This document shows positions 48,289 to 63,840 of a stretch of 64,000 nt of DNA, piece after piece (within the stretch, counting starts at the first letter, position 1; the number at the start of each line of letters is the position of its first letter). The notes below the pieces were generated by a model that did not search any database, was not told the DNA's origin, and was given only the letters and a program-made list of their open reading frames with translations. The stretch is from Serratia plymuthica. Lineage in GTDB: Bacteria > Pseudomonadota > Gammaproteobacteria > Enterobacterales > Enterobacteriaceae. The stretch spans positions 1,922,001-1,986,000 of the forward strand of contig NZ_CP068771.1 in the NCBI RefSeq assembly GCF_018336935.1, read 5' to 3'. The translations under genes and the position numbers were made by a program.

Positions 48289-48426
48289 ATGAATAGCCTA
48301 CGCTTACTGATTTCCGACTCCTGCGATCCCTGGTTCAATCTTGCCGTGGAAGAGTGCATATTCCGCGAGATGACTACGCAAAAAATCCTGTTCTTATGGC
48401 GCAACGCCGAAACCGTGGTGTTCTGA
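48289..48426 (+). pseudogene. lplA: lplA 5' fragment (lipoate-protein ligase A), cut by the integrated element
   Basis: The first 44 codons of lipoate-protein ligase A ([28 protein letters not shown]...[11 protein letters not shown]) match E. coli LplA residues 1-46 and then stop one codon past the junction (TTC TGA). The reading continues at 62950 with [18 protein letters not shown], exactly as in E. coli. So the gene was intact before insertion at ACCGTGGT. Known role: ATP-dependent attachment of scavenged lipoate to E2 and H proteins. Confidence 0.93.
48412..48419 (+). other. attL core
   Basis: ACCGTGGT at the left boundary, inside lplA codons for Thr-Val-Val. It is identical to the right copy. 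The next base on each side differs (A/G here, T/C at attR), so the identical core is 8 bp. Short cores are typical of large serine recombinases. Confidence 0.85.
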
Positions 48427-48467
48427 TATTATTCACACATGAGAAAATTATCATTTGAGAGTTTGTC

Positions 48468-50180
48468 ATGACTACACGCCGCCCCCACGTTTACACCCGT
48501 ATAAGTAAAACGACCCAGACAGAAGGTAGTGGTCTGGACGAACAGACCGCTCGTATTGAACAGTACTTGAAGGATAAGAGGCACCTTTTTGAAGGTGACG
48601 TGACCTACTGGCAAGACATCGGGGTATCTGCTTACCGCGACATGAACATTCAACATGGCCAGCTCAGCGAGTTCATTAAACAAGTTGATGAAGGGCGTAT
48701 AGGGCAGGGTGATGCCCTTATCATTTATAGCCTTGACCGGCTTTCACGGCGTTCATCGTGGGATGAAACAACAATACAGCACCTCGTAAAAAAGGGTGTT
48801 GAAATCCATGATGTCAGTACACCTGTTGTACTGAATCGTGAAGACTCCATGTCAAAAATCATCATGGAACTCATCGTTACCCGTGGGAATAACGAAAGTA
48901 AGATTAAGTCTGAGCGGAGTACTGCCGGTTGGGAAAAGCGTCTAAACGATACGTTGAAAGATGGTCGTGTATTCACCAATAAACTACCGCGTTGGTTAGG
49001 GTCGAACGATGACCAGTATGTAGTACTCAAAAATGAAGCAGAAATCATAAAGCGAATCTTTCGTGAGTACACGAACGGTATGAGTAGCCCTATGATCGCC
49101 CGGAGGTTGAATGAAGAAGGGACTGGTAAATCGTTATGGCGTCCTAACACGATCACTAAACTCATCAAAGACGAGCGTCTCAGAGGTAATCTCGTTCGTG
49201 AGAAGATAACTTTAATTCCTAATGTATTTCCGAAAGTGATCGATGATGAGTTGTTTGTATTGGCGAACAGAATATTAAGTACTAATGCCGTATGTAAGAA
49301 GGGCAGGCCACGTGAGAACAATAAAACAAGGGAAGTTAATAATATCATAACGGGCTTAGTACGTTGTGGAAAGTGTGGTTCTAAAGTCACTACTACGAAA
49401 AATGGTAGAGGTATGCGATATATTACATGCCTTAATCGTTTGAACTATAAAATTTGTGGACAGAAAAGTATTCGTCTTGAAGAAGTTGAAAGAATAGTTA
49501 TCACTCACGTTAAGCAAGTTGATCTCAGTAAGGTACTTTCAATCTCTAATGCAGATACTTCAAACGAAGCACTGTTACAGGCAGAGCTGATAGAACTAAA
49601 AATAGAAGAACAGAGTTGTAGAGTAAAGATTGATGAACGGAAAAGATTAAAACAACGGGCTTCTTTGCCTTTGGCAAACGCATTGACGGATATTCAAGAT
49701 CGTATTGAAGAAATACAAAGTGAAATTTTAAACTTACAAGTACAAGAACCATTGCCGGATATTAGTAGTGATAGTATTTCAGCACTTCTGGATGCAAGTA
49801 ATGTTGAACTTCGAATGAGTCTTAGGAAGTACTTAGTTCAGGTGGTTGATAAATTAACTTTCATCAATATTGGTGATTATAACATCATAGAAGTGCAGTA
49901 CAATAATAATGTTTACTGCCACGCTCTGATAACTGATAAGAAACTTAAAGTACTACACGAAGTGGATATTACAGTTAGTGGTGATAATACTACTTATAAT
50001 AGTGGTGGTTTTAGTATTGTCGAGAGTGAGAGCGAAGGTGTTTGTACTTTTGAAGGTATCGATAATGTTAGTTACACCGATTATTTCTTGTTGGCTAATT
50101 ACATCGGTAGTTTGCCAGAAAAACAGTGGATTGTAGATGTTATATATTTACAACAGAATATGGACGCAGTTCTCAAATAA
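48468..50180 (+). CDS. Large serine recombinase (integrase of the element)
   Basis: A 570-residue large serine recombinase. The N-terminal resolvase domain (1-~150) has the nucleophile serine in YTRISKTTQ (~residue 13) and the arginine-rich YSLDRLSRRSSWDE. The recombinase domain (~155-260) begins GWEKRLNDTLKDGRVF. A zinc ribbon (CGKCGS...TCLNR...C, ~310-345) and a coiled-coil region (~370-420) follow. The C-terminal ~100 residues are less typical. It starts 48 nt inside attL, which supports its role in integrating the element into lplA. Excision would need a directionality factor; small candidates lie downstream. Confidence 0.93.
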   Translation: MTTRRPHVYTRISKTTQTEGSGLDEQTARIEQYLKDKRHLFEGDVTYWQDIGVSAYRDMNIQHGQLSEFIKQVDEGRIGQGDALIIYSLDRLSRRSSWDETTIQHLVKKGVEIHDVSTPVVLNREDSMSKIIMELIVTRGNNESKIKSERSTAGWEKRLNDTLKDGRVFTNKLPRWLGSNDDQYVVLKNEAEIIKRIFREYTNGMSSPMIARRLNEEGTGKSLWRPNTITKLIKDERLRGNLVREKITLIPNVFPKVIDDELFVLANRILSTNAVCKKGRPRENNKTREVNNIITGLVRCGKCGSKVTTTKNGRGMRYITCLNRLNYKICGQKSIRLEEVERIVITHVKQVDLSKVLSISNADTSNEALLQAELIELKIEEQSCRVKIDERKRLKQRASLPLANALTDIQDRIEEIQSEILNLQVQEPLPDISSDSISALLDASNVELRMSLRKYLVQVVDKLTFINIGDYNIIEVQYNNNVYCHALITDKKLKVLHEVDITVSGDNTTYNSGGFSIVESESEGVCTFEGIDNVSYTDYFLLANYIGSLPEKQWIVDVIYLQQNMDAVLK

Positions 50181-50325
50181 TTCTGACAAAAAATCTAATT
50201 TCGGCTATAATATGGGTGGGTATTTTATCTAAAAATGAAACGACTCGTTTTGTTATGCTATAATATAAGAGTGTTTCGGTGGTTATTCACTAAATAAGTA
50301 CAGTGAAATTGCACAGGAACACCTA

Positions 50326-50463
50326 ATGAAACAATTTATAAAAGACTTCATCGTACTATCTACAATTTTCGTAGTAATTATTTTAATACTCGCTAACCCA
50401 ATAAGTATAATTTGGGGAATTGCCTTCATATGGGCATTGGGAGTGCTAAATGTACAAGCTTAA
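50326..50463 (+). CDS. Small hydrophobic protein (45 aa)
   Basis: A 45-residue frame starting ATG at 50326: MKQFIKDFIVLSTIFVVIIL, a break at NP, then a second hydrophobic stretch. Probably a one- or two-helix membrane peptide. It overlaps the next gene by 14 nt, suggesting translational coupling. The upstream GGAAC is a weak ribosome site. Function unknown; small enough to be a toxin-like or regulatory peptide, but nothing proves that. Confidence 0.5.
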   Translation: MKQFIKDFIVLSTIFVVIILILANPISIIWGIAFIWALGVLNVQA

Positions 50464-50734
50464 TATTATAACGGCTTGTTGGCTAGTAAAAGTACTATTT
50501 CCCGATCTACCAGTACTAGATGTTTTGGTAAATGAGATACTACGATTTCTTCAAGACAATAATCTAGAATTAACCGAAGATGATATTGATCAATTCAATA
50601 GCGTATACTGGCCTGTATTGTTCACGCTTTATGACGTGAAATTAATAAATATAGATGATGGAAATACAATAGCCTTTGTGATTCGAGATGAAAAGCTTGG
50701 AATCGCATATGGAAACATTTTCTACTTTATCTGA
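50450..50734 (+). CDS. Hypothetical protein (94 aa)
   Basis: A 94-residue acidic, mostly soluble protein (MYKLNIITACWLVKVLFPDL...LRFLQDNNLELTEDDIDQFNS...IAFVIRDEKLGIAYGNIFYFI) of mixed helix and strand. I do not recognise the family. It overlaps the 45-aa membrane peptide gene by 14 nt and sits between the recombinase and a ribbon-helix-helix gene, the position where excision or regulatory factors often lie. Confidence 0.55.
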   Translation: MYKLNIITACWLVKVLFPDLPVLDVLVNEILRFLQDNNLELTEDDIDQFNSVYWPVLFTLYDVKLINIDDGNTIAFVIRDEKLGIAYGNIFYFI

Positions 50735-50828
50735 TAAATAATACAACAACAAATCTCCAAAGACAAAGTTACCGCCAATGTCACGAGGCGGTACTTTTTT
50801 ACGGAAAAAACATAGGGAATGTATAGCA

Positions 50829-50990
50829 ATGGAAAAGAAGAACAAGAAAAAGCAAATTAATGTACGTTTAAACGAAACGCAAATGCAGTACTTACAACAA
50901 TTAGTGGATAGTGGTAAGGCAAGTACTCAAAGTGGAGCACTAGTCTACCTGATAAATCAATATGCAATTTTAGGAGGTAATAAGAGCTAA
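50829..50990 (+). CDS. Ribbon-helix-helix DNA-binding protein (53 aa)
   Basis: A 53-residue basic protein: MEKKNKKKQINVRLNETQMQ, then YLQQLVDSGKASTQSGALVYLINQ. The strand KQINVRLNETQ followed by two helices is the Arc/MetJ/CopG fold. It may repress its own operon or serve as a recombination directionality factor. I chose the ATG at 50829 (AGGGA 10 nt upstream); the frame also opens at 50778, but those extra residues do not look like protein. Confidence 0.7.
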   Translation: MEKKNKKKQINVRLNETQMQYLQQLVDSGKASTQSGALVYLINQYAILGGNKS

Positions 50991-51049
50991 TAGGTAGTTT
51001 GCAGTAAGTAGTACAGAGGCATCACACGGACGTTGAGATGCAAATATAA

Positions 51050-51664
51050 ATGGAATTTGAAATGGAACAGGAAAATAATAAACTAGTCTACGGTATTGGT
51101 ACTAACGATCTAGCTCGCAAGAAACAAAAACAAATTGAAATCGGACTAATTACACCTGAGTTTCGAAAAGATTGCTATAAGGCGTGGAACAGTCGTTTAG
51201 CGGCACAGAAGAAGGGGAAAGCCACTGTTTGCACTGAATGGCTTACTTACTCTAACTTCACACGCTGGTGGCTAGACACTCACATTGAAGACTGGTGCAT
51301 TGACAAAGATTGGCTTACTGGTGGGAAAGAGTACTCTCCAAGTAATTGCGTTTGGATTCCGAATAAGATCAATTGTCTGATGTGTGATGGTCGTAAGAAA
51401 AGTAACAGTTTGCCAATGGGAGTGTCTCATAACAATGATAGTTATTGTGCGAAATGTTGGGTTGGTGGACTTCACGTAAATAAAACTTTCAAATGTCCCA
51501 ATCAAGCCCACAGACAGTGGCAAGAGTGGAAGATTGAAGAGATTGATAATGTGATCTCGCAATTCAGTACTGAACCACGTTTAGATAGTCGTATTATCGA
51601 CCGTCTCATTGAAGTAAGAGATAGTATCCAATCTGATTACGACAACAATATGAAAACGCAATAA
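51050..51664 (+). CDS. HNH/AP2-like nuclease protein of phage type
   Basis: A 204-residue protein. Its central part GGKEYSPSNCVWIPNKINCL resembles the stretch in phage free-standing HNH endonucleases where 'YSPENC.FVP..VN' precedes an AP2-like DNA-binding domain. Then LPMGVSHNNDSYCAKCWVGGLHVNK, followed by PNQAHRQWQEWK, is the AP2-like part. Trp-rich N-terminal region (TEWLTYSNFTRWWLDTHIEDWCIDKDWL). Several CxxC-like pairs could bind zinc. Likely a homing-type or relic nuclease; whether catalytic His residues remain is unclear. Start at 51050 or 51062. Confidence 0.6.
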   Translation: MEFEMEQENNKLVYGIGTNDLARKKQKQIEIGLITPEFRKDCYKAWNSRLAAQKKGKATVCTEWLTYSNFTRWWLDTHIEDWCIDKDWLTGGKEYSPSNCVWIPNKINCLMCDGRKKSNSLPMGVSHNNDSYCAKCWVGGLHVNKTFKCPNQAHRQWQEWKIEEIDNVISQFSTEPRLDSRIIDRLIEVRDSIQSDYDNNMKTQ

Positions 51665-51733
51665 AATAAAGCCCGGACGTGGGGCTTGTTTTTGGGAAAA
51701 TAAAAAACCAACTAAACTATTTATGGGTATATA

Positions 51734-52207
51734 ATGGCAGGAAAACAACAAAAAACAGATAACTCAAAATTCATTAGCATTGCTGGTAATAACCATAAGT
51801 ACTCAGACCTTACCACAGAGGGTAAATCCATAGTTATTGATGTTATTAGTAAATGTGCAGGCAAGAAAGGATACCCAAAAGAAAAAGTATACTTCGTACT
51901 ATTCAATTGTACTGAAATTAGCAGGGATAGGGTTAAGTACTGGCTCCAGTACTACTACGGGAAAACTAGTGGTGATTCGGCACCTACAGAGGACACAGTA
52001 CGCAAGTTTCTAACTATCACCAAGCAGCTATCGGCGGCAATGGTTGATGCTCATACTAAAGGTGTGAAGTTATTTAAAAATTCAAAAGACGGTCACTGTT
52101 ATTTAACGCCAGTACAGAAATATCGAATCGATAAAATATATAATGACGGCGGATCGGCAGAAGAAATGATAGTACTGATTCAGAAAATGATTGATGATGC
52201 GAAGTGA
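51734..52207 (+). CDS. Hypothetical protein (157 aa)
   Basis: A 157-residue mixed alpha/beta protein with a basic N-terminus (MAGKQQKTDNSKFISIAGNN) and Tyr/Lys-rich middle (DRVKYWLQYYYGKTSGD), ending in a helical stretch (MIVLIQKMIDDAK). It could bind nucleic acid, but I see no motif that proves a function. Preceded by a GGGTAT site and followed by a 640-bp gap carrying direct repeats. Confidence 0.55.
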   Translation: MAGKQQKTDNSKFISIAGNNHKYSDLTTEGKSIVIDVISKCAGKKGYPKEKVYFVLFNCTEISRDRVKYWLQYYYGKTSGDSAPTEDTVRKFLTITKQLSAAMVDAHTKGVKLFKNSKDGHCYLTPVQKYRIDKIYNDGGSAEEMIVLIQKMIDDAK

Positions 52208-52230
52208 TTTACTTTATGTTGCGACCACCT

Positions 52231-52288
52231 TACTTCGCAAGATGGTGGTTTACTTCGCAAGATGGTGTGTTTACTTCACATGATAACA
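52231..52288 (+). repeat. Tandem 20-bp direct repeats (iteron-like)
   Basis: TACTTCGCAAGATGGTGGTT (52231-52250), TACTTCGCAAGATGGTGTGT (52251-52270), and a degenerate third copy TACTTCACATGATAACA (52272-52288). The core CGCAAGATG recurs inverted at 52342-52350. Iteron-like spacing; a protein-binding array is likely. Confidence 0.65.
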
Positions 52289-52728
52289 AAATAAATCGTA
52301 GTAAAATCAATTGTTTGCGTTCAGATTGTGGTGTCAATTCGCATCTTGCGACGTTATATTAATATTACTCTTACTCAAAATTTTATAATAAACAATCGCC
52401 AAGTAAACTTGTCGTAGTCAAAGCTCGTAAACTCGCTTTAACTAAGAAAAATTAAATAGGGATTAAACTTGCGTTTTTTCCCTTTCGGTCAAAAGAACGC
52501 GGCATTTTGATTTTTTTAAAATAATTTATTAGTTATTGAAAAGAACTAAAATAATTTTGGGTATTTTAAATGACTTATTAGTAGCTACGCACTTCGTTTG
52601 TTTAGGGATCGGGCTGTTGAAAGCCCTTAGATAAAAACTACTCAAAATAACTACTGAAAAGACAGTAAGTAGAAAAGACAAGTCGTCGCCCCCGTTCGTG
52701 AGTAGGGAAGTCCAATGATTCGCCGGGC

Positions 52729-52779
52729 AGTACTAACGCGAAGCCACCCCCGATCAATTACAACCCCTCATGATAGTGA
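52729..52779 (+). repeat. Copy 1 of a repeated segment beginning AGTACTAACGCGAAGCCA
   Basis: The first 18 bases are identical to those at 55958; the following ~35 are similar with small gaps (both contain CCGATC-AATT-like and CATGATAGTGA / CTATGATGGTGA). Confidence 0.6.
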
Positions 52780-52853
52780 TTTCGACATGCAGCACTGGCA
52801 CTTGCATGAGACAATGATAAAGTACTGCAATGTTCAACTTCAAAGGACAATAG

Positions 52854-53315
52854 ATGATCGAGTTCGCGAGCAAGTACAAAGATTTGCTTACTATTAGTTT
52901 TAGTGCGTTATCATTCATAATTGCATGTACTGCATTGTTCTTCTCGGCAAGAACTGCTCTGCGAGACAGATCGAAACTATTGATCACCGCACGTACAGTA
53001 GCGGAGCCGTTCTACAAAAAGGTCTATAAAATTGAGGTTAAAGTTACAAATATAGGTAGACGAATTGCCGCAATAGAAGGTGTGCAATGCCATTATGAGC
53101 AAGGCTATACCTGTCGTGACTATATCGAGGAAGGAATTCATCTGAAGGAAAAAGAGAGGGTGGTACTCGATGTGGAAAGGCGTAGCACTATTCTCAATGG
53201 AGATGAAGGTGACGTCTATCAACTTGAAGATATCACTGTGTTAGATACTCAAGGGAAAGAGTACCGAATTAAGAACTCCAAAAAACTAGTAGAAAGATTA
53301 ATAGCAGAGGGATGA
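52854..53315 (+). CDS. Single-TM protein with a soluble beta-type domain (153 aa)
   Basis: A 153-residue protein with one N-terminal TM helix (LLTISFSALSFIIACTALFFSA), a basic stop-transfer (RTALRDRSK), then a strand-rich domain (YKIEVKVTNIGRRIAAIEGVQC, TILNGDEGDVYQLEDITVLD). Such anchor plus beta-domain proteins are common in mobile elements, with no known function. An AGG-rich site precedes the ATG. It is followed after 7 nt by a multi-TM gene, probably one operon. Confidence 0.65.
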   Translation: MIEFASKYKDLLTISFSALSFIIACTALFFSARTALRDRSKLLITARTVAEPFYKKVYKIEVKVTNIGRRIAAIEGVQCHYEQGYTCRDYIEEGIHLKEKERVVLDVERRSTILNGDEGDVYQLEDITVLDTQGKEYRIKNSKKLVERLIAEG

Positions 53316-53322
53316 CTTAGCT

Positions 53323-54039
53323 ATGGCATTAAATTGGAATGGAATAAAAAACATAGCAGATATTACTAAAATTACCATTTTTGCGTACTCATGCTATTTC
53401 TTCTTTAGGATGGGAGAGGCTGTTTTTTATGGCTATCCATTCAGTTACATCAGTGTAGATTCATCTAGTTTGTTTTCAGTACTGATAAAGTCATTAATTG
53501 CATTGTTATTTGCTTTCGCAATGATAAAGACTGCAATGAAATCATCACAAGGTGCTATTTGGAATACTTTTCTAGTACTTATTAGCTTGGTAGTACTTTC
53601 CGTAATGATGTATCTTAAAGATAGAAACTTACATGAGGTATCAACTGTTTTTGTTTTTTATATTATAATTTACTATTCATTGTTTTCCATTGCCGATTCA
53701 ATAAGAGAACTCAACAAAACTGATGAGGGAAACGTGCAAGGCAGGGGGCTGTTAAAGGCTGTATTTTATTCTTGGGTTATTTGTTTCGCGTTAGGGAATT
53801 ATTACTATGGTTTCGCACCTAATGGGTTATATCAGGATAAGGATGGACGTGTAATTATAGCTCAATACAATGACAAGTACATAATGAAAAAGTGTCAAAG
53901 TAATGGAGTTATGGCGACATATATAGCTGACATTCCAGATGGTATGTTAACTCCAGTACCGGAAAACTATTTTGATAGAGAATTTTTGAAAGCGAAATGT
54001 AAAGTACACTCAAGTACGCATGATAAAAAAATTGAATAA
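53323..54039 (+). CDS. Multi-TM membrane protein (238 aa)
   Basis: A 238-residue protein with about five TM helices (ITIFAYSCYFFFRMG, LFSVLIKSLIALLFAFAMI, FLVLISLVVLSVMMYL, VSTVFVFYIIIYYSLFSIA, AVFYSWVICFALGNYYYG) and a soluble C-terminal ~60 residues. It overlaps no other gene and is separated by 7 nt from the single-TM gene upstream, so the two may form a complex. Unknown family. Confidence 0.65.
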   Translation: MALNWNGIKNIADITKITIFAYSCYFFFRMGEAVFYGYPFSYISVDSSSLFSVLIKSLIALLFAFAMIKTAMKSSQGAIWNTFLVLISLVVLSVMMYLKDRNLHEVSTVFVFYIIIYYSLFSIADSIRELNKTDEGNVQGRGLLKAVFYSWVICFALGNYYYGFAPNGLYQDKDGRVIIAQYNDKYIMKKCQSNGVMATYIADIPDGMLTPVPENYFDREFLKAKCKVHSSTHDKKIE

Positions 54040-54114
54040 TGATAGTGATGTTGACATATGGACAGTAAAAAAATGACATTATATGGTTAAACTGCGAGCA
54101 ACTATGAGGGTGGA

Positions 54115-54336
54115 ATGATGATCGACTTCCTTGATATCGTTGATTTTGACCCACCGAGCTACAAACTGAAGCAGAATGAAAATGGTAACTGGGAAGCGAG
54201 ACGCACAAGTAATTCATGGTGCGTAGAATTTACTAACCTTTACCGTAACATACGAGACAACTACGAACTGATCCTAACACATCCCAAAAATCCTCGCTTT
54301 GATGAGGATGTTGATTATATTATATTCAGGAAATAA
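54115..54336 (+). CDS. Hypothetical protein (73 aa)
   Basis: A 73-residue acidic soluble protein (MMIDFLDIVDFDPPSYKLKQ...ARRTSNSWCVEFTNLYRNIRDNYELIL). A good ribosome site (GAGGGTGGA) precedes the double ATG. No family recognised. Confidence 0.55.
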   Translation: MMIDFLDIVDFDPPSYKLKQNENGNWEARRTSNSWCVEFTNLYRNIRDNYELILTHPKNPRFDEDVDYIIFRK

Positions 54337-54389
54337 TTAGCGGTAAAATAGTTTCACACTACACGCAAAAAACACTCTGGAGAGTCTAA

Positions 54390-54755
54390 ATGAGTCTTGA
54401 AATTTCTTTTGTTTCAGATCATGGAAACATTTCCATGGAGAGGATAGTGTTACGCTCCAATTCAAACGGAGTATTATTATGGAATTACTTACTATCGGAT
54501 AGTACTTATCATAGTGATGGTACTGTTTCTAATAAACTGCGTCACGTGTTCGATTTTGACTCTCTAACCGCAATTACTTTGAATGATGGGGATTTAATAA
54601 TTCTTTATACTTGTAAAGGTAATGATAGTGTCTATGAACATGAAGGTGTGAAGATTTATTCGATACATTGGGGCTTAAATGAAACAGTATGGAACAAAAA
54701 TGGCGATGAGGCTGTGTTGATTAAAGCCGAATCTAGAGCTAAAAAGAAAGTCTAA
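54390..54755 (+). CDS. Hypothetical protein (121 aa)
   Basis: A 121-residue strand-rich soluble protein (MSLEISFVSDHGNISMERIVLRSNSNGVLLWNYLL...) with a lysine-rich tail (ESRAKKKV). Ribosome site CTGGAGAG. It converges with the minus-strand block that follows. Function unknown. Confidence 0.55.
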   Translation: MSLEISFVSDHGNISMERIVLRSNSNGVLLWNYLLSDSTYHSDGTVSNKLRHVFDFDSLTAITLNDGDLIILYTCKGNDSVYEHEGVKIYSIHWGLNETVWNKNGDEAVLIKAESRAKKKV

Positions 54756-54811
54756 TAATTTAACGGCGAGGGTATGTAACCAATACCCTCATCAGAAACA
54801 TACGATTTTAA

Positions 54812-55553: not shown

Positions 55554-55753
55554 CTAACGTACTTCCAAACGGTAGGGGGGATTTTGTCGTACAACTTCCC
55601 CATTGTAAGTTCTGCAAGTCGATGATCAGACGCGGCGTAGAAGGTTTCAAGTTCATCATTAGATAGTTCGTACTTATTCTTATCAATTACTTTTTCAAGG
55701 GTATCAATACTGATGCAGCGGCGAAGCTGCATTATCCAATCTTGTTTGGTCAT
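55550..55753 (-). CDS. Hha/YmoA-family nucleoid co-regulator
   Basis: A 67-residue protein matching Hha/YmoA closely: [20 protein letters not shown], then [44 protein letters not shown]. Known role: Hha-type proteins bind H-NS and StpA and sharpen silencing of AT-rich, horizontally acquired genes, including those of conjugative plasmids. Its presence on an AT-rich island suggests the element manages its own silencing. Its stop overlaps (ATGA) the start of the following membrane-protein gene. Confidence 0.92.
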
Positions 55754-55858
55754 AGAGTCTCTGTGTTGTCTTGAACGAGAATACTTTGTACTGATTCTAC
55801 ACTAAGGTTAAGATACTGGCGATACTACTACAGTACAGAAAAAACAAGGACGACACAT

Positions 55859-56008: not shown

Positions 56009-56050
56009 AATTAAAGCCGCAATATTGCGGCTTGTTAAACGCATAGCGTA

Positions 56051-56560: not shown

Positions 56561-56572
56561 ATAATATGCTCC

Positions 56573-57958
56573 TTAATCAATAAACAAATCAGCATAGTGT
56601 TTAATTATTTTACTGTGCGATGTACGAACGGTTTTGTACTTTTTGCTTAGCTCTCGATCATACTCAAAACTATTATTTAATCTATTTTGAGTGTCATAAG
56701 CTCCAATTGATAATGCATCTCTAATTGTATAAGATAAATTTAAATGTGCTTCAATTATTGCATAAAATTCATTCTTGTTTTTTGGTTTCAATCCCCAGAG
56801 CTCCATTCTTGCCATGTCAGATCTTAGAGATATTGTATTTTTCCTATAGATAGACTCTCTATCACGCAAGTTTCCCCAGCGTTTTGCAAAGCTATTTTTT
56901 TCACCTTGAATATCAGGATCGGTGTTAATAATGTGTTTCACATCAGTGTGAAGATATAAAGATTCTTGCTGTAATCTACAGAAATTATCTATTATTTCAT
57001 CTGCGAACTTTACTTTACGATCGTTTAATTTAGGTGAAAGCCAGTCTTTGGCATTAACGGCTGCATAAACAGCTGCACCAGCCATGCAGCTGTTTGCACC
57101 TGCACTTAGCCAATCAGTCAATGAACCTATTTCCATTTTCTTATCCGAGTTATAAAGAATAACACCAATCAATAGCAGTACTATAAGAGTGAGTAGTACT
57201 ATAACAAGTCCGGTGATTATTCGATTAGCCCATTTCATATGGAATTTTTCTGAAAGGTAATTTTTTGTATTTTTAATTTTTGTGGATTTCACTCTTCTAA
57301 TGTTGAATGTTATATCTATATCTGTATTTTTTGATCTTTTCAAAGACTTCCATAAATAAACCCCAGTTGTTATGCCTATGAAAGCCAAACCTATTAGCAT
57401 GAAGTTTACTGATATATATGACATGCTATATATACTAATGCCAAACCAAACAAAAGTAATAGATAATACTATAATTTCATTTGATAGTGATATTGAGTGT
57501 CTTATATTACCTTTGACGATGTTTAATTTATAAATATTTCCTGAAAAATAAGGTTCAAGTATATCAATATGTCTCTCCCAATTTTCCTGCCACTGTTTCC
57601 CACTAAGGCAGGTGATTAAAAATTGTAGACTAATAAAATAACCGAGCACGCTTGCACAAAACAAAAATGACAGTAGTTCTTTGGCAATCTTACCATCCTT
57701 TAAAAACGCAGCAGAGACAACACCACAAATTGCGACTAGTACTGATATGAGTGTCCAAAAATATGACGCCCGCTTCCAGTATAATTCAATTTCAAATTTG
57801 CGAATGTCATGAGCCTTATTATAAGCCTCTTCAATTTTTTTGTAGTCTTGCGTAGTGAATTTCTCCCCATCCGCGAGACTCTTCCCCAGTAAATGTTCAA
57901 AGTATTCTTTACTCTCAAGAGGGAAGGTATGATCAGTTAGTTTTGCATTATTTTCCAT
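56573..57958 (-). CDS. Two-part membrane protein: multi-TM N-terminal domain fused to an AKDW-family module (461 aa)
   Basis: Residues ~1-235 form a membrane domain: an N-terminal soluble helix region (AYNKAHDIRKFEIELYWKRA), TM helices (SYFWTLISVLVAICGVVSAAF, FLFCASVLGYFISLQFLITC), the motif SGKQWQENWERHIDILEPYF, and two more TM helices. This resembles a family sometimes called RipA-like octameric membrane proteins (low confidence). Residues 241-461 begin MKWANRII and repeat the AKDW module: TM helix, DKKMEIGSLTDWL, YAAVNAKDWL, then a helical C-terminal domain. About 68% identity over the first 66 residues to the 55553 gene suggests recent duplication. Function unknown. Confidence 0.7.
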   Translation of the reverse strand: MENNAKLTDHTFPLESKEYFEHLLGKSLADGEKFTTQDYKKIEEAYNKAHDIRKFEIELYWKRASYFWTLISVLVAICGVVSAAFLKDGKIAKELLSFLFCASVLGYFISLQFLITCLSGKQWQENWERHIDILEPYFSGNIYKLNIVKGNIRHSISLSNEIIVLSITFVWFGISIYSMSYISVNFMLIGLAFIGITTGVYLWKSLKRSKNTDIDITFNIRRVKSTKIKNTKNYLSEKFHMKWANRIITGLVIVLLTLIVLLLIGVILYNSDKKMEIGSLTDWLSAGANSCMAGAAVYAAVNAKDWLSPKLNDRKVKFADEIIDNFCRLQQESLYLHTDVKHIINTDPDIQGEKNSFAKRWGNLRDRESIYRKNTISLRSDMARMELWGLKPKNKNEFYAIIEAHLNLSYTIRDALSIGAYDTQNRLNNSFEYDRELSKKYKTVRTSHSKIIKHYADLFID

Positions 57959-57969
57959 GTTTTATTACC

Positions 57970-58068
57970 TCACATACTGCCATACAGTAGTCGGGTTAAT
58001 TTTTCACTAATATAGTACGGGAAGGTTGGTAGTGTAACAGCCACAGCTAAAGCAGTAATGGTGATCAT
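57970..58068 (-). CDS. Possible hydrophobic leader peptide (32 aa)
   Basis: A 32-codon frame directly upstream of the 461-aa gene: MITITALAVAVTLPTFPYYI, then SEKLTRLLYGSM. One hydrophobic segment. Its stop lies in GTGAGGT, the likely ribosome site of the 461-aa gene, which starts 11 nt later. It has no clear ribosome site of its own, so this is tentative. Confidence 0.3.
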   Translation of the reverse strand: MITITALAVAVTLPTFPYYISEKLTRLLYGSM

Positions 58069-58432
58069 GATAACGTCTATTCGTCTCACACCAAATTGTC
58101 CCCACCATTATATGTTTGATAGTATAGTACTATTGTCCGGTGGTACTAAACAATAAGGGCATCAACCTGAAGTAAAAAGTTAGTACCACCGGATAATCCA
58201 ACCTCCTGTACGCCTCTCTACGCGTTTTAAATCACACCACCTATATGATTACCTGGGTTTTCACTAAAACAGTTCACAGTGGCGTACACGTACGATATCA
58301 ATTTATTGATCGTTTAAAGTGATCAATTATCAATTATTGATCTGTAAATCCTATCAATGTAAGTGCTCGTCTGATATGATGCTTCCAGCCGTCAGCGGCC
58401 AATAAATAAAATAAAAATGTCTGGAGAACCTT
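58069..58432. other. Intergenic region with an inverted repeat
   Basis: About 360 bp between the minus-strand block and the following lipoprotein gene. It holds the inverted repeat at 58136-58193 and AT-rich promoter-like sequence. No gene seen. Confidence 0.45.
58136..58193. repeat. Perfect 14-bp inverted repeat with 30-bp spacer
   Basis: TCCGGTGGTACTAA (58136-58149) and TTAGTACCACCGGA (58180-58193). It could be a regulator site serving both flanking transcripts, or a tiny miniature-element-like insertion. No T tract follows either arm, so a terminator is unlikely. Confidence 0.7.
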
Positions 58433-58768
58433 ATGAAATTATTAGTAATCATATTATTTTCAATAGCCTTACTTACCGGTTGTAGTACCCCTTGGATGGA
58501 TCAAGCACTGGTAGGAACGGTTGATGGGAACAACGTAGTAGTACTGTTCCCGGCTGGTGATGGATTTTACAGGCCACAATTCAGCAGCGATTGCCGCAGA
58601 ACATACAATAAAAACTATCAGTTGGACAATAACAGTACGGGCTGTCGCATTGCAGCCGAGCGGGTTACTAATATCCGTGCCTATCGTGAACCGGGTGAAA
58701 CGGGTAACACTGTAGTAAAAACGAATAGCCTCGCACCGATTCACAGCAATAGTATTGAGAACCTATAA
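58433..58768 (+). CDS. Small lipoprotein (111 aa)
   Basis: A 111-residue lipoprotein: signal and lipobox MKLLVIILFSIALLTGC, then a mature part with VGTVDGNNVVVLFPAGDG and two further cysteines (SSDCRRTYN, NSTGCRIAAERV) that could form a disulfide. Unknown family. Ribosome site CTGGAGA. A terminator follows. Confidence 0.65.
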   Translation: MKLLVIILFSIALLTGCSTPWMDQALVGTVDGNNVVVLFPAGDGFYRPQFSSDCRRTYNKNYQLDNNSTGCRIAAERVTNIRAYREPGETGNTVVKTNSLAPIHSNSIENL

Positions 58769-58827
58769 AATTACCAACACCAGTGAATAGGGGATTTAAC
58801 CAATAATAGTAATAATAAATTACCCCC

Positions 58828-58859
58828 AGCCTCGGCCTAATCGCCGGGGCTTTTTTTTA
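58828..58859 (+). terminator. Terminator after the small lipoprotein
   Basis: AGCCTCGGC-CTAATC-GCCGGGGCT (imperfect pairing) followed by TTTTTTTT. Confidence 0.8.
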
Positions 58860-58885
58860 CCTAAATACAGTAGAGGTAATATGTA

Positions 58886-59050
58886 ATGAAACTGATAGCA
58901 GAATGCAAAACTTTTAAATTGAGTGAATCGTTATATCAATGTATTAACATTAATGGTTTTCAGATTGAAACGATAGTTACGATGTCGGGGGAATGGTCAT
59001 GTACTATCAAGGATACATACACCGATTTAGTACTAGACGCTCCAGTGTAA
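58886..59050 (+). pseudogene. 5' part of a cargo gene split by the IS3-family element
   Basis: Fifty-four codons, from MKLIAECKTFKLSESLYQCI to KDTYTDLVLDAPV; the last Val and the stop codon come from the IS end. Joined to the segment starting at 60253 in the same frame it gives a protein of about 176 residues. AGAGG lies upstream of the ATG. Family unknown. Confidence 0.65.
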
Positions 59051-59124
59051 GTATCCCTGCGAAACGAACCATTCACTTCTAGAGATCTTCCGACATACTG
59101 ATTATGTCCCCTGAGGAGATCACC

Positions 59125-59391
59125 ATGCGTAAAGCCCGATTCACCGAACACCAGATCATTGCCGTTCTGAAGTCCGTCGAAGCCGGACGTACCGTTAAGG
59201 ATGTCTGCCGTGAAGCCGGTATCTCTGAAGCCAGTTATTACAACTGGAAAGCGAAGTTTGGCGGTATGGAAGTCTCTGATATCAAAAAGATGAAAGATCT
59301 CGAGGACGAAAATCGTCGCCTGAAACAGATGTTTGCCGATCTCAGCCTTGAATGTCGGGCCCTGAAAGACGTTATCGAAAAAAAGCTTTAA
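59125..59391 (+). CDS. IS3-family transposase OrfA (HTH and leucine-zipper)
   Basis: An 88-residue protein: MRKARFTEHQIIAVLKSVEA opens the HTH, with VKDVCREAGISEASYYNWKAK, then a coiled coil (MKDLEDENRRLKQMFADLSLE). A -1 shift at A-AAA-AAG (59379-59385) just before its stop would make the OrfAB transposase. Closest in feel to the IS407-like subgroup. Confidence 0.92.
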   Translation: MRKARFTEHQIIAVLKSVEAGRTVKDVCREAGISEASYYNWKAKFGGMEVSDIKKMKDLEDENRRLKQMFADLSLECRALKDVIEKKL

Positions 59392-60236
59392 AACCAGCGA
59401 TAAAGCGTGAACTCGTTAACTATCTGACGGCGCAATTTGCCATGAGTTTACGCCAGGCCTGCAGGACATTATCGCTGAGCAGGACGGTGTATTTTTACCC
59501 GCCCGATACCCGGCGTGATGAACCGGTGATCCAGGCGCTGACTGAGCTGGCAGAGCGCTACCCGCGGTATGGGTTTAAGAAGCTGTTCCAGTTGCTGCGC
59601 AGGCAGGGTAACGCCTGGAATCATAAACGCGTTCACCGCATTTACTGCCTGCTGAAACTGAATTTTCGCCGCAAGGGAAAGCAGCGTTTGCCTGTACGCA
59701 ACCCGGCGCCGCTGGCGACGCCGGAAGCACTTAACCAGAGCTGGTCGATAGATTTTATGCATGATGCGCTGGTGTGTGGCAGACGCTTCCGGACCTTCAA
59801 TGTGGTTGATGACTTTAACCGCGAGGCTCTCGCAATAGAAATCGATCTGAATATCCCGGCGCACCGGGTGGTCAGAGTGCTGGACAGGATAGTGGCAAAC
59901 CGCGGCTACCCGCTGAAGATGCGGATGGACAACGGGCCAGAACTGGTCTCACTGGCGCTGGCACAGTGGGCCGAAGAACATGGTGTGCAGCTCGAATTTA
60001 TTAAGCCGGGTAAGCCTACACAAAATGCGTTTATCGAACGGTTTAACCGGACATACCGGACAGAAATCCTGGATTTTTACCTGTTCAGAACCCTGAATGA
60101 AGCACGGGAAATTACAGAGCGCTGGCTGATGGAATATAACAACGAGCGGCCTCATGAATCCCTGAACAACCTGACGCCGGAAGAGTACCGGCTAATGGCT
60201 GAAAACCCGGAAATCTCAAAAAGTGCGTGGAACTAA
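59352..60236 (+). CDS. IS3-family transposase OrfB (DDE integrase core)
   Basis: A 294-residue catalytic part with an rve integrase core. First Asp lies in WSIDFMHDALVCGRRF, second in RMDNGPELVS, and Glu in NAFIERFNRTYRTEIL. It is read mainly by -1 frameshifting from OrfA; the nominal ATG at 59352 lies upstream of the shift site. Full length with no internal stops. Confidence 0.92.
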   Translation: MSGPERRYRKKALKPAIKRELVNYLTAQFAMSLRQACRTLSLSRTVYFYPPDTRRDEPVIQALTELAERYPRYGFKKLFQLLRRQGNAWNHKRVHRIYCLLKLNFRRKGKQRLPVRNPAPLATPEALNQSWSIDFMHDALVCGRRFRTFNVVDDFNREALAIEIDLNIPAHRVVRVLDRIVANRGYPLKMRMDNGPELVSLALAQWAEEHGVQLEFIKPGKPTQNAFIERFNRTYRTEILDFYLFRTLNEAREITERWLMEYNNERPHESLNNLTPEEYRLMAENPEISKSAWN

Positions 60237-60252
60237 AGCTGGGATACTTACA

Positions 60253-60623
60253 CAAGTACTGGTGCAGTTAATGAAATCATTGTGAGGGATTATCAGGCCA
60301 AGTACTTACACGATATTACTGTGAAACCACGTAATCAAGTGAAAATAGTACCAACATCTGTTGCAAAACTCACTGCACAGGGAAATATCAGTGCAATGAA
60401 ATCCGGCATTAGGAATGGTAAATTTAAAATAGTAGATTCAGGTGGGAAGAAACGAATGATTGATACTACAAAGAAAGGTAGGAAAAACCGTTCTAAACGT
60501 GTTGTCGGTGTTCGTGAGGTTAAGAAACGTAAAATGGTATATGACTTTTACGCAAACGCCGAAGCCGGTGCACGTCTTATCTTATCTGACCTACAAGGCC
60601 AATATATATTTAGGAGAATGTAA
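60253..60623 (+). pseudogene. 3' part of the IS-split cargo gene
   Basis: Continuation of the gene that starts at 58886: an open frame from the IS edge (STGAVNEIIVRDYQAKYLHD...) to a basic C-terminal part (GGKKRMIDTTKKGRKNRSKR), then KMVYDFYANAEAGARLILSD. A GTG at 60282 could start a 113-residue product. The Lys/Arg cluster suggests nucleic-acid or membrane-surface binding. The next gene begins immediately after its stop. Confidence 0.6.
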
Positions 60624-60839
60624 ATGATAATGCAAGACCAACATCAATACTATGAAGATGATACACGTTCAATTCAAATTAATGATCTAGTACCGGATGG
60701 TAACTCACTGCCCACTAATGTTTGTTTTCTTGGTCAGAAGTTCAAGAAACTATTAAAGCAACAGCTAAAACTAATTAATGAAGAACTTGAAATGGAAGTT
60801 GATGTACAAGAAACAATGAATATCATCTTTGAGAAATAA
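60624..60839 (+). CDS. Hypothetical protein (71 aa)
   Basis: A 71-residue acidic protein (MIMQDQHQYYEDDTRSIQIN...LLKQQLKLINEELEMEVDVQ) with a helical C-terminal half. The ATG follows the previous stop directly, with GGAG 8 nt upstream, so the two are likely co-translated. Unknown family. Confidence 0.5.
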   Translation: MIMQDQHQYYEDDTRSIQINDLVPDGNSLPTNVCFLGQKFKKLLKQQLKLINEELEMEVDVQETMNIIFEK

Positions 60840-60973
60840 CAACAACAACTGGAACTTGGAAACATATACCAATGGTCATTGTTTGACGTTGAACGAACTA
60901 TCGTTGTCATTGAAAAAACAAGATTGTTTGTAAAGGGGAAGTACTTCTGGGTTTATTCAACAGGAATACTAAA

Positions 60974-61267
60974 ATGTTTGGAATAGGAGCGATCATTGAT
61001 TTGATCAAAACTGGTTTCAGTTTCTTCCAGAAAAAGGAACAGAGTAAGAAAGATTTAGATGCACAGAACAGCCATGAGCAGAATGAAATAACACTCGAAG
61101 AAACTCGTAAGGGCTTCACGTGGTGGCAGGCTCTTGGGTATGTACTAACGTTTATTGTTGCATGGAATTACGTGATTCTCCCAGTACTGGCTGTATGTGG
61201 GGTAGTACTGCCAATACCACTTGATGACGTATGGCGGGTACTGATAGTATTGATTGGTGGTGGTTAA
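60974..61267 (+). CDS. 3TM-holin-like membrane protein (97 aa)
   Basis: A 97-residue protein: an N-terminal hydrophobic/amphipathic segment (MFGIGAIIDLIKTGFSFFQ), a charged helix (KKEQSKKDLDAQNSHEQNEI), then two TM segments (GYVLTFIVAWNYVILPVLAV; VWRVLIVLIGG). The pattern, especially the FIVAWNYVILPVL stretch, resembles 3TM phage/GTA holins. With no lysin or virion genes nearby, its role here is unclear. Confidence 0.6.
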   Translation: MFGIGAIIDLIKTGFSFFQKKEQSKKDLDAQNSHEQNEITLEETRKGFTWWQALGYVLTFIVAWNYVILPVLAVCGVVLPIPLDDVWRVLIVLIGGG

Positions 61268-61282
61268 ATAACAGGGTGTTGT

Positions 61283-61975
61283 ATGGATAGTTGGTTATCA
61301 AAACAAAGAGCTGGATTTAATAAAGATGAATTTAGAGTGCGTGTTTCAGAAATAAACTGGAACATACATAAAAGATTAATTATTTCAGAATTTGAGAGCG
61401 TAGTCAGAGATGCGAAGTCAAATGGGATTGACTTGTTTTATTATGATTATAAAGACCAATCTATTCCTAATAAGGAAAGTGTTGGTTATGATGGTGTAGC
61501 CCTGAGGTTTTCTGCCGAATTTACTGGGAATGGGTATAGATATAAAAATAATGAAAGCATTCATACCGATCTTAACTTCCAGCACGGAGCAACTCTGCAT
61601 GTAACCTATAGTGCTATAGGTTTAGTATTGGTTTTTTTGACTCCAAGCACTTCCAAAGACTCATTAGCCGATCACCCAACGATAAATTTATATAGTACTT
61701 ATGATTCTGGGTCAATTAACGCTCATCGAATAAAACCTTGGATTAAGAAATTTTTTGCATATCAGAGAATAACAGGCGTGCTGTATCGGAGGACTTTATA
61801 CAGCAGGTTGTTAGTAACACGAATGAGGTTAAATAATTACTTTAAAAGTTATCTTTTGCCCGATGAGAAATTCAAAAGAATTAGCGGGATATACATACCG
61901 GGTTGGGCATTAATATTTGTGATAATTACGGTTATGATCACACTGTATCCAATACTTACTACGACTCCGAAATGA
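61283..61975 (+). CDS. Membrane-anchored hypothetical protein (230 aa)
   Basis: A 230-residue protein: a mostly soluble N-terminal domain (~1-105), a hydrophobic stretch (HVTYSAIGLVLVFLTP), a basic region (KKFFAYQRITGVLYRRTLYS), and a C-terminal TM helix (GWALIFVIITVMITLYPIL). It is 15 nt from the holin-like gene. Family not recognised. Confidence 0.55.
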   Translation: MDSWLSKQRAGFNKDEFRVRVSEINWNIHKRLIISEFESVVRDAKSNGIDLFYYDYKDQSIPNKESVGYDGVALRFSAEFTGNGYRYKNNESIHTDLNFQHGATLHVTYSAIGLVLVFLTPSTSKDSLADHPTINLYSTYDSGSINAHRIKPWIKKFFAYQRITGVLYRRTLYSRLLVTRMRLNNYFKSYLLPDEKFKRISGIYIPGWALIFVIITVMITLYPILTTTPK

Positions 61976-61978
61976 AAA

Positions 61979-62000
61979 GCCCCACTAGGGGCATTTTTAT
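61979..62000. terminator. Terminator between convergent cargo genes
   Basis: GCCCC-ACTA-GGGGC followed by ATTTTTATT, at the end of the 230-aa gene and facing the minus-strand lipoprotein. Confidence 0.75.
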
Positions 62001-62245
62001 TCACACTTCCATATGGTGTTCTGTACTCCAGATCCTTCCGGAAGGTGAGGATTCATATTCGCAGAGTGTGTATATGTAGCCTTGCCCTTGCCGTACTGTT
62101 GGCAAGCTGCGTTGGCTGTCTTTTGCAAGCTGTCCAAACCATACCAGCCATCGGACTGGATACTTACGGTTTTCCCATCGTTGTACTGAACTTGAGCACA
62201 TCCTACCAAAATCAACGGAAGGCAAATTAGAACCAATTTTTTCAT
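61997..62245 (-). CDS. Small lipoprotein (82 aa)
   Basis: An 82-residue lipoprotein: MKKLVLICLPLILVGC (lipobox LVGC), then QVQYNDGKTVSIQSDGWYGL and a cysteine pair (ANAACQQYG, TIWKCE). Start ATG at 62245, 5 nt after the stop of the gene upstream; a TTG at 62263 would add six residues and is less likely. Function unknown. Confidence 0.65.
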   Translation of the reverse strand: MKKLVLICLPLILVGCAQVQYNDGKTVSIQSDGWYGLDSLQKTANAACQQYGKGKATYTHSANMNPHLPEGSGVQNTIWKCE

Positions 62246-62250
62246 TGAGC

Positions 62251-62460
62251 TTACCAATTCCAATTCACCGTAGTGTTCAACTCGCGTAGGTTCGTATGTT
62301 CAGTTCTGGTTGGTTGTAGTACTACCTGCCCAGTTTCACGATCGATGATATCAAAAAACTCGATTTCGGTCTGACCCATAGTACCTTTGGTTCTCATATT
62401 GGTTCTAACGTACTCGTACTTGTCTTTCGGATAGTTATCTTCGAATTGTTCTTCTGTCAT
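62251..62460 (-). CDS. Hypothetical protein (69 aa)
   Basis: A 69-residue soluble protein (MTEEQFEDNYPKDKYEYVRT...IEFFDIIDRETGQVVLQPTR). I chose the ATG at 62460 because GGGA lies 9 nt upstream; other in-frame ATGs lie just before (62466, 62469) and the frame is open to 62562. It probably forms an operon with the following lipoprotein. Unknown family. Confidence 0.5.
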   Translation of the reverse strand: MTEEQFEDNYPKDKYEYVRTNMRTKGTMGQTEIEFFDIIDRETGQVVLQPTRTEHTNLRELNTTVNWNW

Positions 62461-62548
62461 TTTCATCATTCCCAGTGGGTAAGCAAGTAACCACATATAT
62501 CTTAGGGTAAGGATAGGGGGGGTGACAATCCATCTGGTTGCAAATTGT

Positions 62549-62567
62549 ACATTTTGTTTCAAAATGT
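62549..62567. promoter_or_regulatory. Palindrome between divergent cargo genes
   Basis: ACATTTTG-TTT-CAAAATGT, a perfect 8-bp inverted repeat lying between the divergent genes at 62460 (minus) and 62606 (plus). Operator-like. Confidence 0.5.
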
Positions 62568-62605
62568 GTAATCTGAAGTTGATATCCCATCAAGAGGACT
62601 TACAC

Positions 62606-62839
62606 ATGGCAAAAGGTAAAGATCAACACGTAACACCCCATGCTGATGGATGGCAAGTAAAAGGTGAAGGTAACAGTCGTGCTACGGTTGTTACTGGTAC
62701 AAAGAAGGAAGCCATTGATGCCGGTAGGGCAATTTCCCGTAATCAAGAAAGTGAGTTAGTGATCCATAATAAGGATGGGAGGATTTCGAATTCTGATTCA
62801 CATGGACATGATCCAAATCCACCAAAAGATACCAAGTAA
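62606..62839 (+). CDS. DUF2188-type small protein (77 aa)
   Basis: A 77-residue protein (MAKGKDQHVTPHADGWQVKG, then SRATVVTGTKKEAIDAGRAISRNQ and ELVIHNKDGRI) typical of DUF2188: a twisted sheet with the conserved W and the VIH-KDGRI end. Function unknown; such proteins are common on mobile elements. The ATG at 62606 with AGAGGA upstream is preferred over longer in-frame starts. Confidence 0.8.
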   Translation: MAKGKDQHVTPHADGWQVKGEGNSRATVVTGTKKEAIDAGRAISRNQESELVIHNKDGRISNSDSHGHDPNPPKDTK

Positions 62840-62842
62840 TTC

Positions 62843-62870
62843 GACAAAGGAGCCTTCAGGCTCCTTTGTC
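62843..62870. terminator. Strong hairpin terminator near the right end
   Basis: GACAAAGGAGCC-TTCA-GGCTCCTTTGTC, a perfect 12-bp stem, followed by ATTTAG. It closes the last cargo gene and shields the chromosomal junction. Confidence 0.8.
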
Positions 62871-62909
62871 ATTTAGAGTACCGTACCTGGCCTGACTCGA
62901 TGTCATTTT

Positions 62910-62928
62910 AATAATAATTATCGTTATC
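62910..62928 (+). promoter_or_regulatory. Fur-box-like sequence at the right end
   Basis: AATAATAATTATCGTTATC agrees with the Fur consensus at 15 of 19 positions and lies directly before the ATG of the truncated lplA frame. The AT-rich context makes a chance match possible. Confidence 0.35.
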
Positions 62929-63840
62929 ATGTTTGCAATACTAGCTAATACCGTGGTCATTGGCCAGTCACAAAACCCGTGGAAAGAATGCAACACCCGG
63001 CGGATGGAGCAAGATGGGATCCGGCTGGCGCGGCGCAGCAGTGGGGGCGGAGCGGTATTTCACGACCTGGGCAATACCTGTTTTACCTTTATGGCGGGTA
63101 AACCCGGCTACGATAAAACCGTGTCCACCGGCATTATTCTGGCGGCGCTGGCTCAGTTGGGGATCTCCGCCACGGCATCAGGGCGCAATGATCTGGTGAT
63201 CGATACCGCAGAGGGCGTACGTAAAATATCCGGGTCGGCCTACCGTGAAACTCAGGATCGCGGGTTTCATCACGGTACGTTGTTGCTGAATGCCAATCTC
63301 AATCGTCTGGCGGATTACCTTAACCCGGACCCCAAAAAATTGCAGGCCAAGGGCATCACCTCTGTGCGTTCTCGCGTTGCCAATCTGGCGGAGTTCCTGC
63401 CCGATATCAACCACCGGCAGATATGTGACGCCGTGACACAGGCCTTCTTTGACCACTATGGCGATACCGCCACGGCGGAAATCATCTCTCCGGATGTTTA
63501 TCCCGATCTGCCGGATTTCGCCGCCCAGTTCGCCAGGCAAAGCAGTTGGGAGTGGAATTTCGGCAAAGCGCCTGCATTTAGCCATTTGCTGAATGAGCGG
63601 TTCGTCTGGGGCGGAGTGGATATCTTCTTTGACGTGGAGAAAGGCGTCATTGAGCGGGCGCAGATTTTCACCGATAGCCTTAACCCTGCGCCGTTGCAAC
63701 AGTTGGCAGAGAGGCTGGTCGGGTGTGCCTATCGCAGCGAAGCTGTGGCAAGTTGCTGTGATAGCCTGACCGCGCAGTCTCCCGATCAAGCTGCCGAGTT
63801 GGCTGAGCTGCGGCAGTGGCTGATCGAGACGATTAAATAA
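62929..63840 (+). pseudogene. lplA: lplA 3' part with a start codon supplied by the element (303 aa)
   Basis: The remainder of lipoate-protein ligase [38 protein letters not shown] (lipoate/AMP site), [20 protein letters not shown] with the catalytic-site Lys region, and the C-terminal domain to LIETIK. It follows E. coli LplA to its end. The element provides an in-frame ATG (MFAILA) 21 nt before the core. The 303-residue frame lacks the first ~42 native residues, so activity is doubtful. Confidence 0.85.
62950..62957 (+). other. attR core
   Basis: ACCGTGGT, the right-hand copy of the 8-bp core, in the lplA frame as Thr-Val-Val. Confidence 0.85.

Follow-up and report, generated by a model that had tools for sequence, protein, structure and literature searches.

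The window analysed here, a stretch of 64,000 nucleotides from Serratia plymuthica (NCBI RefSeq assembly GCF_018336935.1, contig NZ_CP068771.1, positions 1,922,001 to 1,986,000), carries an integrated element in which the short palindrome AGTACT is strongly enriched. The locus raises the question of why one hexamer fills this element and not the DNA around it. Comparison of the element with related prophages and with other phages led us to the view that AGTACT is probably a genome-wide, selected recognition site of a two-fold-symmetric DNA-binding protein in two unrelated groups of Enterobacterales phages.

Excess of AGTACT in the element

The window contains 47 copies of AGTACT, 43 of them in the element between positions 48562 and 62323 and four before position 30000. 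The first-pass annotation, made from the letters alone, had counted about 43 copies by hand in about 13.3 kb of element DNA, against 4-5 expected and about four in the backbone. All three figures were reproduced: the 43 sites lie in 13,378 bp, from which a later insertion sequence (IS; 59086-60245) was excluded, the expectation is 4.5 from base composition and 4.0 from dinucleotides, and the backbone holds 4 sites in 48.4 kb (3.1 expected for positions 1-48400, neither excess nor avoidance). The IS stretch is free of AGTACT, also as claimed. The complete genome (5.46 Mb) has 338 copies, and the element accounts for 43 of these. Among all 6-mers of the element AGTACT ranks first (dinucleotide model, z 19.6); the next palindrome under the same model is TGATCA with 10 copies against 4.8 expected, and AGTACT is the sole strongly enriched palindrome of the element.

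Markov models of order 0, 1, 2, 3 and 4 predict 4.5, 4.0, 8.9, 22.9 and 44.1 copies, respectively. The annotation had held that a prediction of about 40 from the element's own di- and trinucleotides would speak against a true excess; these two models stayed at 4.0 and 8.9. The order-4 model already includes AGTAC and GTACT, and its match to the observed 43 is informative only on the independence of the two halves given GTAC. GTAC itself was counted 108 times (about 107 had been noted). It is preceded by A in 64% of cases, independently of a T on the right, which fits a symmetric site with additive halves. The spacing of the sites is near random; gaps shorter than 40 bp were somewhat frequent in the window (9 versus 4.9 expected, p 0.04), and this short-gap excess was absent in six other elements tested.

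Could the excess stem from codon choice, or be the signature of an earlier host? The element does use the codons AGT and ACT often. However, the excess spans all frames, both strands and gaps: the 33 sites within called genes fall into frames 0/1/2 as 7/8/18, 25 lie in genes on the plus strand and 8 on the minus strand, and 10 further sites lie outside genes. When synonymous codons were permuted within each of eight elements (the window element and relatives described below; 300 shuffles), only about one fifth of the sites was retained. Genic AGTACT dropped from 33-85 observed to 6.9-17.4 in seven elements (33 to 6.9 in the window, 77 to 16.9 in the relative G019) and from 20 to 7.7 in the eighth, c068, and the observed number was matched by none of the 300 shuffles in any of the eight. 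In G019, Ser-Thr is spelled AGTACT in 39 of 74 cases (8.6 expected by codon use), whereas Thr-Ser shows no bias for ACTAGT (2 of 52, 6.0 expected). The codon-use explanation, which had already been discounted in the annotation, was rejected on the basis of the shuffles. A host signature was rejected because the backbone has no excess, and it is further at odds with the retention of the sites in diverged prophages, donor genomes being outside the comparison. Together with the conservation between relatives, these findings leave codon choice or a previous host with practically no probability.

Conservation of the sites and their occurrence in other phages

Relatives were gathered via the HNH-like protein and the all-helical protein orf157 of the element (Table 1) and via portal and tail proteins; the comparison covered ten elements, whole or in part, some of them more than 90% identical to each other. 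Enrichment, which the annotation had wished to see checked in related elements, was present: nine of the ten carry 43-94 sites, one per 243-382 bp, and the most distant one (c068, part of G425) has 24, one per 605 bp. In two further prophages from IMG/VR, the parts first fetched contained 20 and 24 copies (3.6 and 5.3 expected; second and first among the 6-mers) and the whole contigs 67 and 71.

Next to density, conservation of the individual sites was determined, with hexamers of equal letter composition as control. Between G019 and c5498 (76% DNA identity), AGTACT was unchanged at 29 of 39 sites versus 135 of 630 control hexamers (p 1.7e-11), and in the reverse direction at 29 of 58 versus 135 of 668 (p 1.7e-6). 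When G019, c5160 and c106 were each set against five elements from the other clade (15 comparisons), 61-77% of the sites were unchanged versus 20-25% of the controls. Where the encoded amino acids are identical, AGTACT was kept in 16 of 16 cases from G019 to c5498, compared to 38% of 3734 other hexamers, and in 16 of 23 versus 37% in the reverse direction. Starting from the window element, conservation was significant towards c5498 (p 9.8e-5), c8741 (p 0.0033), c7588 (p 0.0076) and c5160 (p 0.0095). Where four or more other elements match the DNA, it carries 4.03 sites/kb, compared to 2.46/kb in the rest, a split that depends on contig completeness. The sites look as if they are kept by natural selection, beyond codon and protein constraint. 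The annotation's idea of a built-in label of the element is supported, since the excess is family-wide and the sites are conserved.

The same excess was found in phages of a different kind. The jumbo phage RaK2 was found to be rich in AGTACT after its relative of orf157 had been noted, and CBB, fetched as a control, was rich as well. Whole records contain 937 copies in RaK2, 1235 in CBB and 1011 in GAP32, while the reversed word as control occurs 142, 187 and 169 times. Nine other phages did not exceed about 1.3 times this control: phiR1-37 (128 versus 100), T4 (29 versus 51), P1 (1 versus 35), rv5 (16 versus 49), phiKZ (75 versus 92), helene 12B3 (40 versus 51), KIL1 (10 versus 23), FelixO1 (20 versus 31) and Csp-D17 (0 versus 45). 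In P1 (NC_005856; 1 copy in 94.8 kb) and Csp-D17 (PQ656801; 0 in 143 kb) the word is apparently avoided. Hosts of the named rich phages are Klebsiella, Cronobacter and Pectobacterium; the prophages (hereafter the small family) reside in Serratia and its relatives. A lysozyme-like gene is common to the small family and RaK2/GAP32 (38-48% identity), indicating that gene exchange between the two groups occurs. No report of an AGTACT enrichment was found in the open-access literature. An independent test of conservation was possible with the pair CBB and GAP32 (49 kb of CBB): in segments below 85% identity, 74 of 116 sites were unchanged versus 820 of 2295 controls (p 2.7e-9).

A scan of IMG/VR for three close copies of AGTACT yielded at least 120 loci, in which the triggering match was masked before density was ranked; 44 remained dense, some of them sharing contigs and some being known elements, and in 43 of these AGTACT was the first- or second-ranked hexamer. 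By protein match, 30 of the dense loci belong to the small family and 10 to jumbo phages. L203 and L216 lie on contigs whose other loci match (L144; L177 weakly) and L154 lies on a contig of 353 kb. L143, a contig of 6.4 kb with 12 copies versus 0.8 expected, matches neither phage group. In a control scan with ACTAGT, 34 of 120 loci were dense, but once the match was masked, none of the 34 had ACTAGT above sixth place; unmasked, L292 was an exception (second, 14 versus 2.6). Most dense control loci have a few other hexamers in common (AAGTGG, ACCTGA), present in hundreds of copies, a pattern expected of repetitive genes.

The surroundings of the sites are largely common to both phage groups and can be approximated as TTnCAGTACTGnAA. 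In 11 of the 12 sequence sets, from prophages and jumbo phages alike, only 3-11% of the bases adjoining the core are G; C is the commonest neighbour in 8 of 12 and T the commonest base three positions out in 11 of 12. Variants with a single change are enriched in a graded manner (2.2-3.2 fold when the outer position is changed, 1.2-2.0 fold for inner positions), and half-motifs are about balanced between the strands, c068 excepted. The duplexes named for the motif and for a contrast are CAGTACTG and GAGTACTC, respectively.

In RaK2, some sites are linked to promoters. In a region of small genes (47 kb), gaps contain 9.8 sites/kb and genes 3.8/kb, and among the short genes of L103 and L104 (RaK2 220-246 kb) densities of up to 10/kb were observed. 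For 177 sites in 26 kb, a TTGACA-like box starts 15 bp before the site in 21 cases (1.2 expected) and a TATAAT-like box lies 7 or 8 bp after the site start in 39 (2.9 expected at each). A promoter-only role was nevertheless rejected, because few oriented sites carry both boxes: 31 of 1874 in RaK2, 7 of 2022 in GAP32, 2 of 954 in the prophages and 0 of 344 in enterobacterial relatives, counts for which no chance level was computed.

Several observations weigh against a selected, protein-read site. Conservation was not significant from the window to G019 (13 of 23 versus 117 of 282, p 0.19) nor in CBB-GAP32 segments of at least 85% identity (11 of 16 versus 214 of 385, p 0.44), and for the window, the counts at identical amino acids (5 of 5 and 6 of 7) are too low to judge. 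The weakest element, G425 (34 sites), does not show the flank profile, with 16% each for G and C, and the half-motifs of c068 are unequal (6 versus 1). None of the phage genes compared as possible readers, which were those of the ribbon-helix-helix (RHH) protein, orf157, the HNH-like protein, Hha and proteins shared by BLAST, tracks AGTACT in every case. Finally, biased repair or conversion could also produce both the excess and an apparent conservation. That AGTACT is a by-product of biased mutation or repair without a function, as proposed for some highly iterated palindromes (HIP) of cyanobacteria, would agree with the independence of the half-sites given GTAC, and a mismatch-repair model exists for HIP (PMC4390886). 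However, such a process is hard to reconcile with single-base variants that are enriched instead of depleted, and as the host backbone has no excess, the bias would need to act on these phages only. We know of no repair system that targets AGTACT and regard this explanation as quite unlikely.

The integrated element and its family

The element interrupts a gene identified by eye as lplA-like: the start of the gene lies before 48419 and the rest follows from 62950 (window 48289-48419 and 62950-63840). The element is bounded by an 8-bp repeat, ACCGTGGT, which is likely the crossover core of the serine integrase encoded next to its left end. The features are listed in Table 1.

Table 1 Features of the element in the window, with the evidence for each assignment.
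Feature	Position	Strand	Evidence
Integrated element (decayed prophage) inside lplA-like gene	48412..62957	.	8-bp repeat ACCGTGGT at 48412 and 62950; reading frame of the gene interrupted at either end
Span of the 43 AGTACT sites	48562..62323	.	Counted positions; none within IS stretch
Large serine recombinase (integrase)	48468..50180	+	Pfam Resolvase 5.7e-15, Recombinase 1.9e-14, Zn ribbon 1.9e-11; PHROG integrase 4.6e-67
Small ribbon-helix-helix-like protein, 53 aa	50826..50990	+	One relative named CopG family by source
HNH-like protein, 204 aa	51050..51664	+	Distant phage relatives annotated HNH endonuclease
orf157, all-helical protein	51734..52207	+	Structure model, pLDDT 89.5
Hha-family protein	55550..55753	-	Pfam HHA 1.1e-35
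Later insertion sequence (IS3-like by eye), AGTACT-free	59086..60245	+	ORFs; 0 sites
Prophage right end: truncated late gene, small late genes, DUF2188 protein	60246..62949	+	89-96% amino acid matches to G019 late genes; Pfam DUF2188 2.2e-24

The relative G019 is a prophage of about 33 kb with terminase, portal and head genes assigned by PHROGs, and tape-measure, tail and lysozyme-like genes recognised by eye. It adjoins other chromosomal genes than the window element, and its integrase matches the window recombinase in two frames with 26-29% identity. The window copy retains both ends of the G019 layout, but the block from terminase to tail is missing at the IS: the left flank of the IS matches relatives ahead of the terminase, the right flank begins within a late gene of G019, and no portal match was found in the source genome (G000). 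The window element is a decayed member of a family of temperate tailed phages of about 33 kb that integrate by a serine integrase.

Neither Pfam nor PHROG matches were obtained for the RHH-like protein, and no Pfam match for the HNH-like protein, which has 33 relatives; those named by source are all from Serratia. Relatives of orf157 are found in Serratia, Enterobacter, Yersinia, Edwardsiella and Klebsiella and in RaK2-type phages. Its model gave no match in a PDB fold search at E 0.001; on the structural level it has relatives in RaK2 and weaker ones in phages of Pseudomonas, for example 98PfluR60PP. The membrane proteins at 55134-57958 and their relatives carry similar N-terminal segments on differing C-termini; one matches Pfam 8xMP.

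L181 and L191 belong to a distant clade of the small family, in which a 1020-aa replication-like protein follows the RHH-HNH pair, where Serratia members have orf157. By eye, the genes flanking them resemble opgH, msyB and mdtG, pointing to an enterobacterial host. A distant-clade protein had no match among 369 genomes from the class or 140 from one family, a search run without a positive control. The window element was found neither in E. coli genomes nor in phages, and among the best 20 of 2134 plasmid records it matched only at Hha genes. Of two scans of genome contigs one was empty and the other gave one weak Nitrospira match. P0057, a relative of orf157, was absent from plasmids, and L144 from E. 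coli genomes. Cargo stretches in L003 (13988-17848) and L015 (3001-6000) contain few or no AGTACT, as if they were recent acquisitions; one encodes, by eye, an ATPase-like protein with a nuclease-like start.

Candidate readers and known systems

How could one word be maintained in such different phages? We propose that selection would keep AGTACT at about one site per 250-400 bp in the serine-integrase prophages of about 33 kb and in jumbo phages of the RaK2/GAP32/CBB type, and that a dimeric, sequence-specific protein would read it. The same or a similar reader may serve both groups, which makes a host-encoded reader, or one passed from phage to phage, likelier than a gene special to the element. 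Such a protein would act on the phage DNA as a whole, which it might organise, mark, silence or protect. A minority of sites in the dense RaK2 region of small genes lies between -35 and -10 boxes, and with protein bound there, transcription would be blocked as well. Our leading guess is a reader that is encoded by the host or shared, and given the host range of the rich phages and the small family, together with the common flank profile, a host reader is the simplest one. More tentatively, AGTACT may be a shared address label, so that unrelated temperate and jumbo phages have tuned their genomes, largely synonymously, to one host protein that coats or marks DNA, avoiding the flanks of SlmA sites; this is possible, although we would not count on it. 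If a host reader were true, unrelated phages would write one signal into their genes to use or to escape one host protein.

Among the phage genes, a repressor that reads AGTACT and silences the genome is conceivable, the candidates here being the RHH protein and orf157. RHH genes are present in the left region of the small-family members inspected, orf157 is common to the element and AGTACT-rich RaK2, and a minority of RaK2 sites lies in promoter spacers. RHH proteins contact bases with a β-strand, as in Arc and MetJ. This presumed contact strand varies (KQINVRL, SHPVSVKL, RSVGVRI, VPVMVRL and others) although the motif is unchanged, and no significant RHH relative was detected among the ORFs of RaK2 and GAP32; the RHH protein, named as a candidate in the first-pass annotation, thus does not track the motif. 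Nor does Hha, also named there: it occurs in four of five Serratia-type relatives and was not found in the fetched parts of L074, L075 and L065. orf157 was rejected as reader, since its only relatives in the phage collection are in the rich RaK2 type but equally rich GAP32 and CBB yielded none, even in a profile search; it was not found in the distant-clade loci either. Moreover, silencing would be unexpected in jumbo phages, which we take to be lytic. Different phages might each employ a repressor of similar specificity that is unrelated to the others, but all in all a phage repressor is unlikely.

The HNH-like protein might act on AGTACT by nicking it for replication or packaging, or in discriminating own from foreign DNA. 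Its gene is present in the Serratia members, L074/L075, distant-clade L181, L161, L156, GAP32 and CBB, and weakly enriched G425 has a different HNH protein at that place. On the other hand, it was not found among the RaK2 ORFs, although one is present in KP13-7 and Muenster, phages of the RaK2 type, and relatives occur in the non-enriched phages Csp-D17 (0 sites), helene 12B3 (40) and KIL1 (10). We consider such a role very unlikely.

Four known systems invite comparison with a selected, protein-read AGTACT. DNA uptake sequences are likewise dense, dispersed short labels, but they are longer, non-palindromic and found in naturally competent cells. As in the genome of mycobacteriophage L5 and its like, where many repressor sites (stoperators) are spread across the phage DNA (PMC9283540), AGTACT is dispersed over whole phage genomes. 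Stoperators lack symmetry, and the repressor that reads them is encoded by the phage itself (PMC9283540); AGTACT is palindromic, denser, also present in jumbo phages and had no phage reader among the genes tested, and instead of asymmetric, transcription-oriented sites we found a palindromic core with balanced half-motifs, except in c068.

The sites of the nucleoid-occlusion protein SlmA come closest in sequence: they are palindromes with an identical AGTACT core, located mainly within genes of Enterobacterales, with a 12-bp consensus (GTGAGTACTCAC) that has G beside the core and about 50 copies per E. coli genome (PMC3116907). Since SlmA sites on a multicopy plasmid block division (PMC3573117), phage DNA could recruit SlmA and thereby stop the host from dividing. 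However, the G flank of the consensus is the very flank that is avoided in the phages, whose sites share the core only, and no more than 14 of 937 sites in RaK2 and 6 of 1010 in GAP32 are within two mismatches of the 12-mer. Recruitment of SlmA is therefore highly improbable.

The nearest system in kind is HIP1 (GCGATCGC) with the other HIP of cyanobacteria: short palindromes far above expectation, dispersed over the genome and of unsettled function, for which selection is weighed against a repair by-product (PMC4390886). AGTACT, too, is a short dispersed palindrome many-fold above expectation. No methyltransferase was detected by Pfam among 20 window proteins (the ORFs of G019 were only partly searched). 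CBB encodes adenine and cytosine methylases, and the CBB paper describes promoter motifs, with no mention of AGTACT in the part consulted (PMC5259590). In the family to which the window element is assigned, integrase, terminase, portal and head genes are present in G019, with the structural genes missing in the window copy. Why a genome should fill up with one short palindrome, as in the best-known case, HIP1, has long been an open question and is hard to test in large cellular genomes; prophages of about 33 kb and cultivable jumbo phages offer measurable site conservation, with non-enriched phages of the same hosts as contrast. HIP are found in cellular genomes, are 8 bp long and contain internal sites of orphan methyltransferases (PMC4390886), whereas AGTACT has 6 bp, resides in phages, had no methyltransferase beside it among the 20 window proteins searched and is common to two unrelated lineages.

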